Source: an uncultured Granulosicoccaceae bacterium (lineage in GTDB: Bacteria > Pseudomonadota > Gammaproteobacteria > Granulosicoccales > Granulosicoccaceae). From it: DNA of 40,097 nucleotides. Within the stretch, counting starts at the first letter, position 1, and every line of letters begins with the position of its first letter. Below the pieces are notes generated by a model. The model was not told the origin of the DNA. It was given only the letters and a program-made list of their open reading frames with translations, and searched no databases. Position numbers and translations under genes: made by a program. Below are positions 6,872 through 14,154 of this stretch, one piece after another. The stretch spans positions 1 through 40,097 of the forward strand of contig CALGKA010000114.1 in assembly GCA_937927895.1 (NCBI GenBank), in the 5' to 3' direction.

Positions 6872-7280
6872 CTTCATTTTTGAAAGACCAAAAACAGAAG
6901 CAAAAAGTCTTCTTGCTACTTTGTTGCCCCTTAGGGGTGGCTTCGCCATTTTTTGAAATCCTCTTCCATGGGGTCGCACGGTATGCACATCCATGTGCAC
7001 CGCGCTCAAAGCGCCGTCCCTGGCGCTTTGACCCCATTCCAGATGATTTCAAAAAACAACAAAAAGCGCGTTAACAGCGTTAACTGCATTCACTTCGTGA
7101 GTGTCGGCACTCTACGTCGGCTTTTTGGGATCTAAGCAACTGATGGGTTTGTGGTTCGCGACGCTCAGTTGGGCTGGTTCTAGCTGATGGTTCTCGAGCT
7201 CGTTTCTGTTGTTATTCCGGTTTTGTTTACTGCTTACAAAGCTTTAGGTCTTCAGGTAGGAGTTCGCTTATAATTTCTTT
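6872..7280. other. Gene-free stretch with a branched inverted-repeat element
   Basis: The region opens with small hairpins (CCCCTTAGGGG; TGGCTTCGCCA). Its centre, 6949-7056, is a nested palindrome. The outer arms are TTTTTTGAAATC (6949-6960) and GATTTCAAAAAA (7045-7056). The inner arms are ATGGGGTC (6968-6975) and GACCCCAT (7030-7037). Inside are two hairpins: TGCACAT/ATGTGCA (6984-6999) and CAAAGCGCC/GGCGCTTTG (7007-7030). Together they can fold into a three-way junction. GTTAACAGCGTTAAC follows near 7070. No gene is seen, and only one copy occurs in the window. Confidence 0.7.
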
Positions 7281-11450: not shown

Positions 11451-12590
11451 CTACTTCTTTAAGCGAACCAGTCCATCCATTACGGAATCCAAACCACCGT
11501 ATACAGACAAGCTGCCCACTTTTTCGGTTACTCTTTCCAGAGTTTCCAGTTCCTTCAAACGCAATGCAACACTATTGCCTTCCATCACTTTCGCGGTGTT
11601 CAACAACGAACGTGTTGCATTGGTTTCTTCACGACGACGAATAACATTCGCTTGCGCCATTTTATCCGCCTCTACCACTTTAGCCAGCAACTCTTTCATG
11701 TCGCCGGGTAGAATGATGTCTTTAACACCAACACTTTTAACGCTGATACCCACCTCACTAAAGCGTGAGCCTAGTGATTTGGCAACCTGCTCGTCAATAG
11801 ACGTTTTATCTTCAAGCAAAGCATCTAAAGTGCGTGTACCCACTGCTGCACGTAAGCCAAACTGAATTTCCTTATACAAATGATCCATAGGATCTTTGAG
11901 CTTACGTAACGCAAGTGCTGCATCTTCAAACTGATAAGTTGCAGCCAGGTTAATTCTTAAAGCGACTTTGTCACTGGTTAGAATTTCCTGACCTTGCACT
12001 TCAAGCGTTCTGACACGCATGTCGATCAGATCAATGCTAACTACACGATCAACGTTAAAATAGGCATGCAAACCAGCGTTCAAGCTTGCAACAATTTCAC
12101 CGTCAACGTACAACAGCCCCACATGACCTTCAGGAACAACACGCCCTACAACAGCGTTTTTCGCAATCGCTTTAACACGACCATCAGCGCTTCCGAACAG
12201 TAATCGAGCAATACGTCTCTCAACAGCAAGACCGACACTTAGATCAAAGCGCTCCACTTTAAGTTTCACAAGTCCCTTAAAGTACATTTTTCGCAACGAC
12301 GGACCTATCACTGCCGACACCTGATCATTGATGTAAACCAAAGCTACTTCTTCTGCTTTAGTTTCAATCACATCAAAAGCTTCACTGACCAGTTCAGGCT
12401 CTGATTGGACTAAATAGTCTTCCATTCTGTGCTCAAACTCTGGCTTACTGATATCGAATCGTTCCAGCTCATAATTGGAAGTCAAAGTCAGGTAACGATA
12501 AATCCCCGGTGCAAGGAAAGCGTAAAAATCTCCGTCCTTGTACAGGAGAGCACGTTCATGCTTACGCACGATAAACTTTCTGTAAAACAT
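11451..12590 (-). CDS. Slipin-type SPFH/band-7 protein
   Basis: This 379-residue protein has a tandem arrangement. An N-terminal module (FIVRKHERALLYKDG...LAPGIY) is followed by a full SPFH domain (VPEGHVGLLYVDGEIVASL...VDLIDMRVRTLEVQGQEILT) and a C-terminal helical tail beginning at VVEADKMAQANVIRRREET. SPFH proteins build membrane-associated rings or scaffolds. This one lacks an obvious N-terminal membrane helix. The frame runs upstream to TTG 12704, but ATG 12590 is preceded by AAGGAG at ideal distance. About 270 bases further upstream, on the same strand, lies the structured tRNA-like region. From memory, slipins occur in some RtcR-type RNA-repair loci; no rtcB, rtcA or rtcR gene is in this window. 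Confidence 0.8.
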   Translation of the reverse strand: MFYRKFIVRKHERALLYKDGDFYAFLAPGIYRYLTLTSNYELERFDISKPEFEHRMEDYLVQSEPELVSEAFDVIETKAEEVALVYINDQVSAVIGPSLRKMYFKGLVKLKVERFDLSVGLAVERRIARLLFGSADGRVKAIAKNAVVGRVVPEGHVGLLYVDGEIVASLNAGLHAYFNVDRVVSIDLIDMRVRTLEVQGQEILTSDKVALRINLAATYQFEDAALALRKLKDPMDHLYKEIQFGLRAAVGTRTLDALLEDKTSIDEQVAKSLGSRFSEVGISVKSVGVKDIILPGDMKELLAKVVEADKMAQANVIRRREETNATRSLLNTAKVMEGNSVALRLKELETLERVTEKVGSLSVYGGLDSVMDGLVRLKK

Positions 12591-12857: not shown

Positions 12858-12951
12858 CCGGCAACGGTTGCCGGGTGCGGGTGATTTCTCACCCGGTTAA
12901 TGCGGAGTCGAACCGCAGGCTTTCGCCGTTCCCATGATGGCGTTGAAGGCC
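12858..12951 (-). ncRNA. Second tRNA-like/structured element (T-arm plus stable hairpins)
   Basis: On the minus strand, directly after the cloverleaf, comes a long bulged hairpin (GGCC at 12951-12948 to GCC at 12920-12918). Next is a canonical T-arm, TGCGG TTCGACT CCGCA (12917-12901). Then come a 7-bp hairpin capped by GAAA (CGGGTGA/TCACCCG, 12895-12878) and an 8-bp palindrome CCGGCAAC/GTTGCCGG (12874-12858). The T-loop TTCGACT fits tRNA rules, but no matching D-arm or acceptor 5' strand is visible. It is therefore half of a tRNA or a tRNA mimic. The compact hairpins suggest a functional RNA rather than decay. Confidence 0.5.
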
Positions 12952-12953
12952 AG

Positions 12954-13027
12954 GTATGAAAGCTGGAATCGAACCAGCTACCCTCAGATTAGAAATCTGA
13001 TGCTCTAACCAAATGAGCTATTTCATG
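12954..13027 (-). ncRNA. tRNA-like cloverleaf, anticodon UCU, without CCA
   Basis: All four arms can be drawn on the minus strand: acceptor CATGAAA/TTTCATA, D-stem GCTC/GAGC with loop ATTTGGTTA, anticodon stem TCAGA/TCTGA with loop TTTCTAA (anticodon TCT, Arg), variable loop GGGTA and T-arm GCTGG TTCGATT CCAGC. Oddities are a C1-A72 mismatch (otherwise a mark of initiator tRNA), an AT-rich acceptor, a discriminator C followed by CTGG instead of CCA, and T15/A48 in reversed Levitt orientation. It may be a tRNA-Arg(UCU) with unusual ends, a tRNA pseudogene, or a tRNA mimic inside a longer RNA. It lies in the slipin leader. Confidence 0.6.
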
Positions 13028-13037
13028 GTTCATCTGT

Positions 13038-13163
13038 GCTTAACAGCTCGGTACACACGGTGCGATGATTAGCGTTGGTGCGCCAGCGAGGCATAAAACC
13101 TCGGCCGCTGAATCTGTTAAACCTACAAATGATAGGTGTACCGAATCGAATAAACGACTCAGT
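13038..13163 (-). ncRNA. Structured RNA region 5' of the tRNA-like cloverleaf
   Basis: On the minus strand, a 9-bp hairpin ACTGAGTCG/CGATTCGGT (13163-13140) is followed by a long-range stem GTTTAACAG (13122-13114) pairing with CTGTTAAGC (13046-13038). This stem encloses an inner hairpin CGAGG/CCTCG (around 13103-13087). The cloverleaf starts ten bases after the closing stem. A perfect AGGAGG at 13180-13175 precedes the region, but no ATG/GTG/TTG follows at proper distance. The layout suggests one RNA carrying a closed stem domain and a tRNA-like domain. Confidence 0.45.
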
Positions 13164-13191: not shown

Positions 13192-13224
13192 AAAAAAAAC
13201 CCTGGTGGAACGAGTCGACCAGGG
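13192..13224 (-). terminator. Rho-independent terminator of the small four-Cys gene
   Basis: CCCTGGT (13224-13218 on the minus strand) pairs with ACCAGGG (13206-13200) and is followed by eight T residues (13199-13192). It ends the transcript of the small ORF at 13287-13472 and separates it from the tRNA-like region. Just upstream on the same strand, two mutually exclusive stems are possible: TGAAAG/CTTTCA and AAAGGCT/AGCCTTT. Confidence 0.8.
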
Positions 13225-13286
13225 CTTTTAAAGGCTATCTGAAAGACTCGCGGTGCAAGCCTTTCACTGAATTTTCAGCTATTTGC

Positions 13287-13472
13287 TTACCACATACGTA
13301 CTTCATTGGGGCGAATACTATGTATACGCCTACCATTGTCCACACTGCATCTTTGTTCAAGTTGCCATGCAGCTGCGCTACACCCTGTAGGTTCTATTGC
13401 GAAGAACGACTCATTCGCCTTGCAGATATAGCAGTTATTGGTTGGCAGTAATTGTTGTGTTTGAATTTTCAT
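13287..13472 (-). CDS. Small four-cysteine protein, probably iron-regulated
   Basis: This is a 61-residue ORF beginning MKIQTQQLLP with four cysteines, including a CYIC pair near residue 14 and single Cys residues near 31 and 42. It ends in RIHSIRPNEVRMW. No family is recognised; the CxxC pair could bind metal. Support for expression is unusually good: a TTGACA-N16-TATACT promoter ends 11 bases before the ATG, Fur-box-like sites lie upstream, and a strong terminator follows. The promoter position implies a near-leaderless mRNA, and no ribosome site precedes the ATG. The transcript could alternatively be an iron-regulated small RNA of about 280 nt. Confidence 0.45.
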   Translation of the reverse strand: MKIQTQQLLPTNNCYICKANESFFAIEPTGCSAAAWQLEQRCSVDNGRRIHSIRPNEVRMW

Positions 13473-13482
13473 TAGGAGCGCG

Positions 13483-13528
13483 AGTATACGGACACTTAGT
13501 TATATGTCAACAGTGATAATAATTTATT
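13483..13528 (-). promoter_or_regulatory. Sigma-70 promoter with overlapping weak Fur-like site
   Basis: On the minus strand, TTGACA (13510-13505) and TATACT (13488-13483) are separated by 16 bases, a near-consensus promoter. Transcription should begin near 13476, leaving a leader of about 4 nt before the ATG at 13472. TGATAATAATTTATT (13514-13528, plus strand) matches the 7-1-7 Fur consensus at 11 of 15 positions and abuts the -35 box, so it could repress. Confidence 0.65.
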
Positions 13529-13572: not shown

Positions 13573-13745
13573 TTTACATAAAACCCAGCATTTAACTGGT
13601 GTTTTCAACACTTACTTACACCTAAAAACCATGGCTCTAGAGTCTCTTTTGAAACTTGAGGGTTTCCGATTAAGCTTCCAGTGTTTGGTTTCAGGCCTGT
13701 GTTTTTTTTTACCTAAGATAATAACTAAGCTACTTTTTCTTATAG

Positions 13746-14019
13746 TCCCACGCTAACGCTTGTGGGTTTCCTGAAACGCACAACATGGAACCTAACGAGC
13801 ACCAACATAGACATGTCCATAAGCAGCTTTGCAGCCGTTTTATGAATAAAGTACGTCAACGGAAACCCACAAGCGTTAGCGTGGGACTGACCACCCCGAT
13901 CTCATCATGCTTCATATCCAGAACCGAACTGCGCAAAACTAAAATCTCATAGTCCGAGTTACATCATTCAAGCTCAAAACTCATACAGTTCAGTCCCACG
14001 CTAACGCTTGTGGGTTTCC
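13746..14019. repeat. Inverted, diverged copy of the 246-bp repeat unit
   Basis: The REP-like 26-mers occur at 13746-13771, 13861-13886 and 13994-14019. Between them the sequence is the reverse complement of the unit at 1-582, including the GACATGTCCATAAGCAGC segment and ACCCCGATCTCATCATGC. It lies between divergent genes (small four-Cys gene and SDR), unlike the other arrays. Confidence 0.9.
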
Positions 14020-14154
14020 TGAAGGTGGGCACGTATCAGTTAACAAGCACTGAAAGACCAATGCCGACTGAACTAATCTTTGTGGTAAATTAGAAATATA
14101 GTAAACCACCAAATTATTGATAGACGTAACAACCGATAAAGTGAGACACCAAAC

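Follow-up and report, generated by a model that had tools for sequence, protein, structure and literature searches.

A structured RNA with a tRNA-like cloverleaf conserved upstream of a slipin subfamily in proteobacteria

Bacterial RNA-repair loci provide the closest described parallels to the element reported here. Y RNAs of the YrlA class are noncoding RNAs with a tRNA-like module that occur in RNA-repair operons beside RtcB and RtcA, and in E. coli, Salmonella and Pseudomonas the rtcBA operon is controlled by RtcR and sigma54. We analyzed a stretch of 40,097 nucleotides (the window hereafter; contig CALGKA010000114.1 of assembly GCA_937927895.1, from an uncultured Granulosicoccaceae bacterium) in which a structured RNA locus with a complete tRNA cloverleaf lies upstream of a slipin gene. 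This RNA belongs to a conserved family of structured noncoding RNAs located upstream of one slipin subfamily, and the locus as a whole is very probably a conserved RNA-slipin module.

The same RNA is present in Pseudomonas aeruginosa PA7, with its cloverleaf just upstream of the gene for the slipin PA4582 (PaFlo8), and the order of locus tags suggests that PA4581.1 is this cloverleaf. In print, by contrast, PA4581.1 is a tRNA gene: the accessible text of PMC8743555 names it as one of two genes that rose most in a late infection isolate and leaves its significance unexplained. Accessible parts of other papers report a 3.2-fold increase of PA4582 under peroxide (PMC1250226), describe the operon and its oppositely oriented RtcR gene (PMC8619066) and place PaFlo8 in the rtc locus (PMC13086221). 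We found no description of a slipin-linked RNA in the literature searched, the coverage of which was partial and mostly limited to titles and abstract openings.

A structured RNA family upstream of slipin genes

On the minus strand of the window, from about 13.51 to 11.45 kb, a promoter, a leader of about 250 nucleotides and a terminator precede the structured RNA (about 13,122-12,879), which itself lies 5' of the slipin gene (12,590-11,451). The elements are as follows:

13483..13510, minus strand: sigma70-type promoter, TTGACA-16-TATACT, 11 of 12 matches, followed by the GC-rich discriminator CGCGCTCC
13287..13472, minus strand: putative leader open reading frame (ORF) of 61 amino acids, starting approximately at the predicted transcription start
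13192..13228, minus strand: intrinsic terminator between promoter and RNA, -16.5 kcal/mol, with none of 200 shuffles as good
about 13164-13139, minus strand: upstream hairpin, from folding
13028..13122, minus strand: 5' domain of the RNA, matched by our model R1 at 69.2 bits, E 1.2e-16 (match 13120-13028; the window copy is among the seeds)
13122-13114 (GTTTAACAG) with 13046-13038 (CTGTTAAGC), minus strand: P1, the closing long-range stem
13103-13099 with 13091-13087, minus strand: P2, a hairpin of the 5' domain
13084-13078 with 13058-13050, minus strand: P3, a helix of the 5' domain with a 2-nucleotide U-A bulge
12953..13027, minus strand: complete tRNA cloverleaf (ARAGORN, Rfam), candidate mimic, anticodon loop TTTCTAA (UCU), C1:A72 mismatch, no CCA
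12938..12952, minus strand: free-standing hairpin with a 7-nucleotide anticodon-type loop, CUUCAAC (family consensus C-U-N-N-N-A-C/A)
12927-12918, minus strand: GAAA-capped hairpin
12917-12901, minus strand: second T-arm, TGCGG-UUCGACU-CCGCA, from folding, with similar T-arms seen by eye in relatives
12879..12894, minus strand: 3' hairpin, GGGTGA-GAAA-TCACCC
about 12872-12856, minus strand: palindrome
11451..12590, minus strand: slipin (SPFH/Band_7) gene, 379 amino acids, with the start set at the ATG at 12590 (the listed ORF opens at a GTG further upstream)

An earlier note on this DNA, made from the sequence alone, had described a 9-bp hairpin, a long-range stem, a cloverleaf, a second T-arm, a GAAA hairpin and a palindrome on one strand ahead of the slipin gene. 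We located all of them on the minus strand, and add P3 with its bulge, the anticodon-like hairpin (12952-12938), the terminator (13228-13192) and the promoter (13510-13483). The 341-nucleotide RNA stretch folds at -122.8 kcal/mol, which none of 100 dinucleotide shuffles attains (z -4.95), and z is -6.29 for the stretch extending to the slipin gene. The cloverleaf by itself gives z -2.18, equalled by 5 of 200 shuffles, and the stretch with the second T-arm is no better than shuffles (z -0.86; 38/200). Besides tRNA, the Rfam scan of the window found no family above threshold over the RNA element.

Slipin relatives were drawn from 76 genomes and from a collection of 84,980 species genomes, where we kept the best 80 of 583. 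Three loci (L031, L032 and L037) repeat L003, L004 and L008 and were excluded, leaving 93 loci. These yielded 80 seed candidates (13 loci gave none), of which 32 were dropped by eye as misplaced or doubtful and 3 left out as near-duplicates; the remaining 45 form the alignment, A2, that seeds model R1. Of 78 genome-contig loci with 650 or more nucleotides of sequence upstream of slipin, 73 have an R1 match there; the five without a match are L064, L068, L069, L082 and L110, the last of which has, by eye, an uncounted P3 with a compensatory change. In the family set the match is present in 15 of 15 loci, although that of L006 is only partial, at a contig end, with an E-value of 0.77. This set omits L004 and L014, whose upstream DNA is missing, L018, with a broken gene and no match, and L019, with a gene in pieces and a match. 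The median distance from RNA to slipin is about 515 nucleotides.

The converse search, proposed in the earlier note, used the RNA alone to look for slipin genes. Scans of 370 genomes of the class and of 397 of the phylum with R1 gave 13 matching genomes each; two of these are in both sets, one being the window's own, which makes 24 genomes. A slipin gene lies downstream on the same strand in 22 of the 24, own genome included. Among the class matches this is so in 12 of 13, and in the thirteenth the slipin is 1.4 kb further on; among the new phylum matches it is so in 9 of 11. The two without slipin, G468 and G713, are the weakest phylum matches, and G713 was checked over 3.1 kb only. A match from another class of the phylum, in G640, is also accompanied by a slipin, 35% identical to that of PA7.

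Alignment A2 yields three helices, the closing stem P1, the hairpin P2 and the bulged P3, and all three covary. P3 is paired in 99.7% of cells and P2 in 81%, with a combined covariation score of 0.481 versus 0.198 in shuffles. The P3 counts on A2 are partly circular, because the seed-picking script required at least six of the seven P3 pairs. Cleaner tests are offered by P1, which was used neither in choosing seeds nor in building the model, and by rows outside the seeds. In P1, pair 13:104 holds in 45 of 45 sequences, and pair 11:106, where 22 double changes occur, in 37 of 43. Among 44 distinct non-seed rows aligned to R1 (three of them partial or off-place weak matches), one of the seven P3 pairs is kept in 33 of 43 and each of the others in no fewer than 41 of 42-43; P2 is irregular there, down to 18 of 40 at its worst pair. 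Taken as wholes, the helices covary above shuffles and slid controls. Stems other than the cloverleaf thus covary and the link to slipin is conserved, two of the three points on which the earlier note had made its reading depend. A pseudoknot (AGCG/CGCU) that we suspected early on was dropped, being seen in part of the family only.

Several other observations concern these loci. L059 (2418-3599) has three tandem copies of the 5' domain ahead of a single slipin gene. A block near the slipin start, GTTGTGGCAACGGTGCCAAC (window about 12655-12636, minus strand), recurs in L002 and L003 and, in a variant form, in L009 and L038-L040. Between the RNA locus and an SDR gene (window 13745-14020) we saw by eye three copies, in both orientations, of a short hairpin-forming repeat, CCCACGCTAACGCTTGTGGG. 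Elsewhere in the window, positions 6932-7074 (minus strand) match the TwoAYGGAY RNA motif at 51 bits.

The cloverleaf and its anticodon loops

ARAGORN reads the cloverleaf of the window as tRNA-Arg(TCT), and it matches the Rfam tRNA family at 64.2 bits (E 7.5e-12). It retains U33 in the loop, leaves position 1:72 unpaired and has no encoded CCA. Across the 93 loci, an ARAGORN cloverleaf lies 280-760 nucleotides upstream of slipin in 72. Only 9 of these 72 are followed by a CCA-like tail (L102 and L082, with anticodon CAT, are among them), versus 59 of 67 tRNAs further upstream in the same loci. The anticodon loop has 7 nucleotides in 59 loci, 6 in 11 and 8 in 2, and the 59 loops of regular size present 29 different anticodons, with U33 in 40.

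Could the cloverleaf simply supply, or once have supplied, a tRNA-Arg beside slipin, as a spare gene or the remnant of a decaying array? Whole tRNA arrays do accompany slipin, upstream of the gene in L033-L035, L047, L058 and L061 and also downstream in L033-L035, and among the tRNAs retrieved, the top-scoring match of the window cloverleaf is the genome's own tRNA-Arg(TCT), with 56 identities (tRNA-Met(CAT) has 59 at a lower score). However, that tRNA-Arg(TCT) is a separate gene with CCA, and in the stretches examined of this genome 33 distinct tRNA sequences were found, the cloverleaf among them, of which 31 end in CCA and the cloverleaf does not. Its 1:72 mismatch, the 6- or 8-nucleotide anticodon loops of 13 of the 72 loci, the presence of U33 in only 40 of 59 and the covariation of the other helices also speak against a spare or decaying tRNA, an explanation that we regard as highly improbable. 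We reject an ordinary tRNA-Arg(UCU) on the missing CCA, the unpaired 1:72 position and an anticodon that is not conserved in relatives; none of the relatives examined has a tRNA-Arg with CCA at this place, a finding that would have spoken against the earlier note. By its sequence features, then, the cloverleaf is a tRNA mimic, not a tRNA.

Differences between related mimics are concentrated at the anticodon. Within ten groups of our own choosing, and counted on pairs, which share ancestry, they amount to 47% in the anticodon, 35% in the loop flanks, 21% in the anticodon stem, 9% in the T-arm and 2% in the D-stem. The Pseudomonas loci L048, L049 and L053 have two mimics each, near-identical save for the anticodon arms and a few D-loop bases. 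The constancy of D-stem and T-arm, which differ least among the parts compared, could be taken as the mark of a processing signal, in which the cloverleaf directs RNase P and other tRNA enzymes to the transcript, so that the slipin mRNA is released by cleavage; tRNA processing enzymes read the T-arm. This would leave the conserved 5' domain, the extra anticodon-like hairpin and the varying anticodon loops unexplained, and we consider it quite unlikely.

The extra hairpin is itself a recurrent feature. Most RNAs of the family have one or two mimics, and over half of those with a mimic have an anticodon-like hairpin after it. The best hairpin just 3' of the cloverleaf has a 7-nucleotide loop in 44 of 72 loci and, in 39, starts at most 10 nucleotides away. 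The loops of these 39 follow the anticodon-loop pattern: C (36), U (37), three variable positions, A (34), then C or A (37). A full C-U-N-N-N-A-C/A loop follows the cloverleaf in 32 of 72 loci, while 100 shuffles gave a mean of 0.09 and a maximum of 1.

Six or more unusual tRNA genes (His, Lys, Trp, Glu, Cys and Arg) form a separate cluster on contig 18 of genome G000, at about 17.0-17.9 kb (L117:3023-3899). Five of them have CCA, and the distant RtcB gene of that genome lies some 2 kb from the cluster. The cluster may be a second stress-tRNA locus.

Repair operons, promoters and terminators

Among the loci of the best 80 of 583 relatives, queries with PA7 proteins found RtcR in 40, in 39 of them divergent and 0.6-1.0 kb upstream. 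RtcB lies downstream on the same strand in 42 of the same 80, two of these at 29-30% identity and one as a piece only. Both counts are lower bounds because contig ends often cut the loci. Pfam confirms RtcR and RtcB of P. aeruginosa PA7. A sigma54 site upstream of the RNA is present in 29 of 38 RtcR loci versus 2 of 46 others, with a shuffled expectation of 1.4%; it lies 36-48 nucleotides before the R1 start in 28 RtcR loci, and at 70 nucleotides, as a poor site, in L070. The two RtcR-less loci with a site, L090 and L091, are on short contigs and may have lost rtcR. As the sigma54 site is just upstream of the RNA, the RNA is probably the first thing transcribed in RtcR operons. Judging from this arrangement, in many beta- and gammaproteobacteria, including Pseudomonas and Burkholderiales, the RNA opens a slipin-rtcB operon predicted to be driven by RtcR and sigma54. 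The conjecture of the earlier note, in which the RNA-slipin system is either reduced or of a different kind and has ties to RtcR-controlled repair, gains support from the covariation, from the synteny in 22 of 24 genomes and from the presence of the RNA in RtcR-slipin-RtcB operons.

The family of the window organism is organized differently. RtcR has no match in 47 of 48 family genomes, the window's own included, and the sole match is in a genome that is 80% complete. An RtcB match is present in 22 of 57 genomes and adjoins slipin in G010, G017, G035 (where slipin is in two pieces) and G036. The earlier note had remarked that no rtcB, rtcA, rtcR or Ro gene is present in the window. In the window's genome RtcR and Ro60 have no match, and a distant RtcB is encoded on contig 18. 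In G006 (L122:2801-5230), slipin is followed by a nucleotidyltransferase-like ORF (by eye) and then by a distant RtcB; a nucleotidyltransferase also stands at the corresponding place in annotated E. coli and Citrobacter records, and on a Citrobacter plasmid rtcR and slipin are accompanied by a nucleotidyltransferase.

A reduced version of the locus occurs in E. coli: a 701-nucleotide slipin-locus query is covered to 80% or more at a single place in 1,621 of 5,426 complete genomes, and in four annotated genomes inspected this place adjoins yjbD or its counterpart. In five E. coli sequences and one from Citrobacter, the sigma54 site (with one base changed in Citrobacter), a T-arm and, by eye, a variant 5' domain are kept.

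Unlike the RtcR operons, the window has no sigma54 site within 200 nucleotides upstream of the RNA and no linked RtcB, and its promoter is of sigma70 type, with a score equalled in 1 of 30 shuffles of the same stretch. Its discriminator CGCGCTCC resembles those of rRNA promoters, and several RtcR-less loci have a similar GC-rich discriminator. We scored 44 RtcR-less loci for such promoters: 19 reach 10 or more of 12 matches, and in 17 of these, the window among them, a run of six or more T lies between promoter and RNA; no such promoter was seen in the other 25. Within 200 nucleotides upstream of the RNA, a T-run occurs in 10 of 38 RtcR loci versus 22 of 46 others. The window terminator, absent from a terminator scan limited to loops of at most 8 nucleotides, may act as an attenuator or may end a separate small RNA encoded upstream. 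The leader ORF has a similar start (MKI.. or MKT..) in L002, L003 and L042, and its remainder diverges.

These features bear on the chief rival explanation, a cis-acting leader: there would be no separate RNA, and the tRNA-like structure would be a switch in the slipin mRNA, acting by T-box-like sensing, attenuation or translation control. The RNA is indeed on the same strand as slipin, a median 515 nucleotides ahead; the T-runs of the 17 RtcR-less loci, with terminator hairpins by eye, fall between promoter and RNA; and the leader ORF of the window begins near the predicted transcription start. However, the terminator precedes the structured RNA rather than following it, the RNA is kept in 28 of 38 RtcR loci with no T-run within 200 nucleotides upstream, and the Rfam scan of the window gave no T-box match. 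We know of no leader type with a full cloverleaf and a free anticodon. A cis-regulatory leader is, in our view, unlikely.

The slipin and possible roles of the pair

The window slipin has a Band_7 domain (E 7.7e-27). Its AlphaFold model (mean predicted local distance difference test, pLDDT, of 80) consists of three small beta units, an SPFH domain and a long helix. Slipins typically have an N-terminal membrane segment; by the hydropathy rule for membrane helices this one has none, the highest 19-residue value being 0.99, and 1.41 among 14 relatives. A Foldseek search with the model returns stomatin first (E 9.5e-17), then HflK/C and prohibitins; the human major vault protein comes 14th (E 2.7e-11). 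The N-terminal repeats alone (pLDDT 89) retrieve nothing at E 0.001 or better, the best hits being unrelated folds at 5.7e-3. A mini vault particle is unsupported, as these repeats reach the major vault protein at E 0.38 and rank 50. Two other candidate identities were set aside: phage cargo, with no slipin match at E 1e-10 among 50,697 phage records, and a known defence protein, with no PADLOC match and no NCBIfam match above cut-off.

What could a soluble SPFH protein do with a tRNA mimic? The mimic's anticodon varies between species and the pair often stands in RNA-repair operons; together these features suggest that the pair is a partner of tRNA defence or repair in bacteria. The position at the head of the operon, the tRNA body without the usual acceptor end and the fast-changing anticodon loops suggest a bait or competitor for enzymes of the anticodon arm. 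For the tRNA-like domain of the Salmonella Y RNA, the authors of PMC7790460 raise a competitive-inhibitor role. The best explanation as a whole, to which we give an even chance, is a conserved RNA-slipin module in which the RNA would act with the SPFH protein against tRNA-cleaving enzymes. The RNA would be made as a stable tRNA mimic and act together with the slipin, which would probably form a ring or cage, as a scaffold; the two would sequester or occupy such proteins as anticodon nucleases, which bind or cut the anticodon arms of tRNAs, or alternatively hold broken tRNAs. The varying anticodon loops would then track changing nucleases. This decoy or scaffold mechanism, in which contact between RNA and slipin is hypothetical, we propose tentatively, at somewhat less than an even chance. 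More speculative, and in itself unlikely, is a new bacterial ribonucleoprotein in which a soluble SPFH cage carries an RNA with one to three changeable anticodon loops that bait anticodon nucleases; its loops would evolve by an arms race, and the module would have passed between RtcR/sigma54 and rRNA-type promoter control.

A number of observations weigh against a defence or repair role built on the mimic. ARAGORN finds no cloverleaf, in the range used, in 21 of the 93 loci, and none was found in the five E. coli and one Citrobacter sequences where it was sought; the anticodon mimic is thus not universal. P1 pairs overall in just 62% of cells of A2, with 20 of 45 at pair 12:105 and 13 of 43 at 7:110, the outermost counted. 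Rapid change of the loops is also compatible with weak constraint. In the window's own genome (92.6% complete) RtcR has no match, and the RtcB gene is distant in sequence, on another contig (18) and unlinked to slipin, so that repair need not be involved there. According to the accessible text of PMC13086221, P. aeruginosa lacking PaFlo8 was unchanged in pyocyanin, swimming and biofilm, and deletion of nine SPFH genes had modest effects. In Salmonella, fragments of the Y RNA, which has a tRNA-like domain, were undetected after anticodon-nuclease action, as reported in the accessible part of PMC7790460.

With this RNA, the RNA-repair operons would have a second tRNA-mimic RNA besides the Y RNA, and an unexplained slipin subfamily would gain a candidate partner. 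The P. aeruginosa gene listed as a tRNA and the Burkholderiales cloverleafs ahead of slipin are probably parts of this conserved noncoding RNA, and the reduced version in E. coli genomes makes direct tests possible in laboratory strains.

How does the module compare with known systems? The operon neighbourhood and the tRNA-like module are of the kind described for Y RNAs (accessible part of PMC7790460), and a YrlA RNA working with Ro60 might be suspected. Among 11 loci scanned with the Rfam model, the best YrlA match, a single weak one in L091, scores 26.3 bits against a gathering score of 69, and there is none in the window; TROVE, the Ro60 domain, has no match in 48 family genomes, own genome included. 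Membership of the Y RNA class, the most improbable of the explanations considered, is rejected on these grounds, and the comparison drawn in the earlier note holds only as an analogy, in the tRNA-like module. The slipin-linked RNA differs in a 5' domain that the YrlA model does not recognize, in a full cloverleaf with an anticodon arm, sometimes two, and in its partner, slipin instead of Ro60. With the RtcR/sigma54 rtcBA operons it shares a setting, the RNAs of Pseudomonas and Burkholderiales sitting between the sigma54 site and slipin-rtcB. With stomatin, the HflK-HflC assemblies and the major vault protein, the slipin shares the SPFH domain and long helix, and the window slipin lacks a membrane segment. 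The proposed SPFH-cage ribonucleoprotein would be a counterpart, in bacteria, of Ro60-Y RNA or vault particles.
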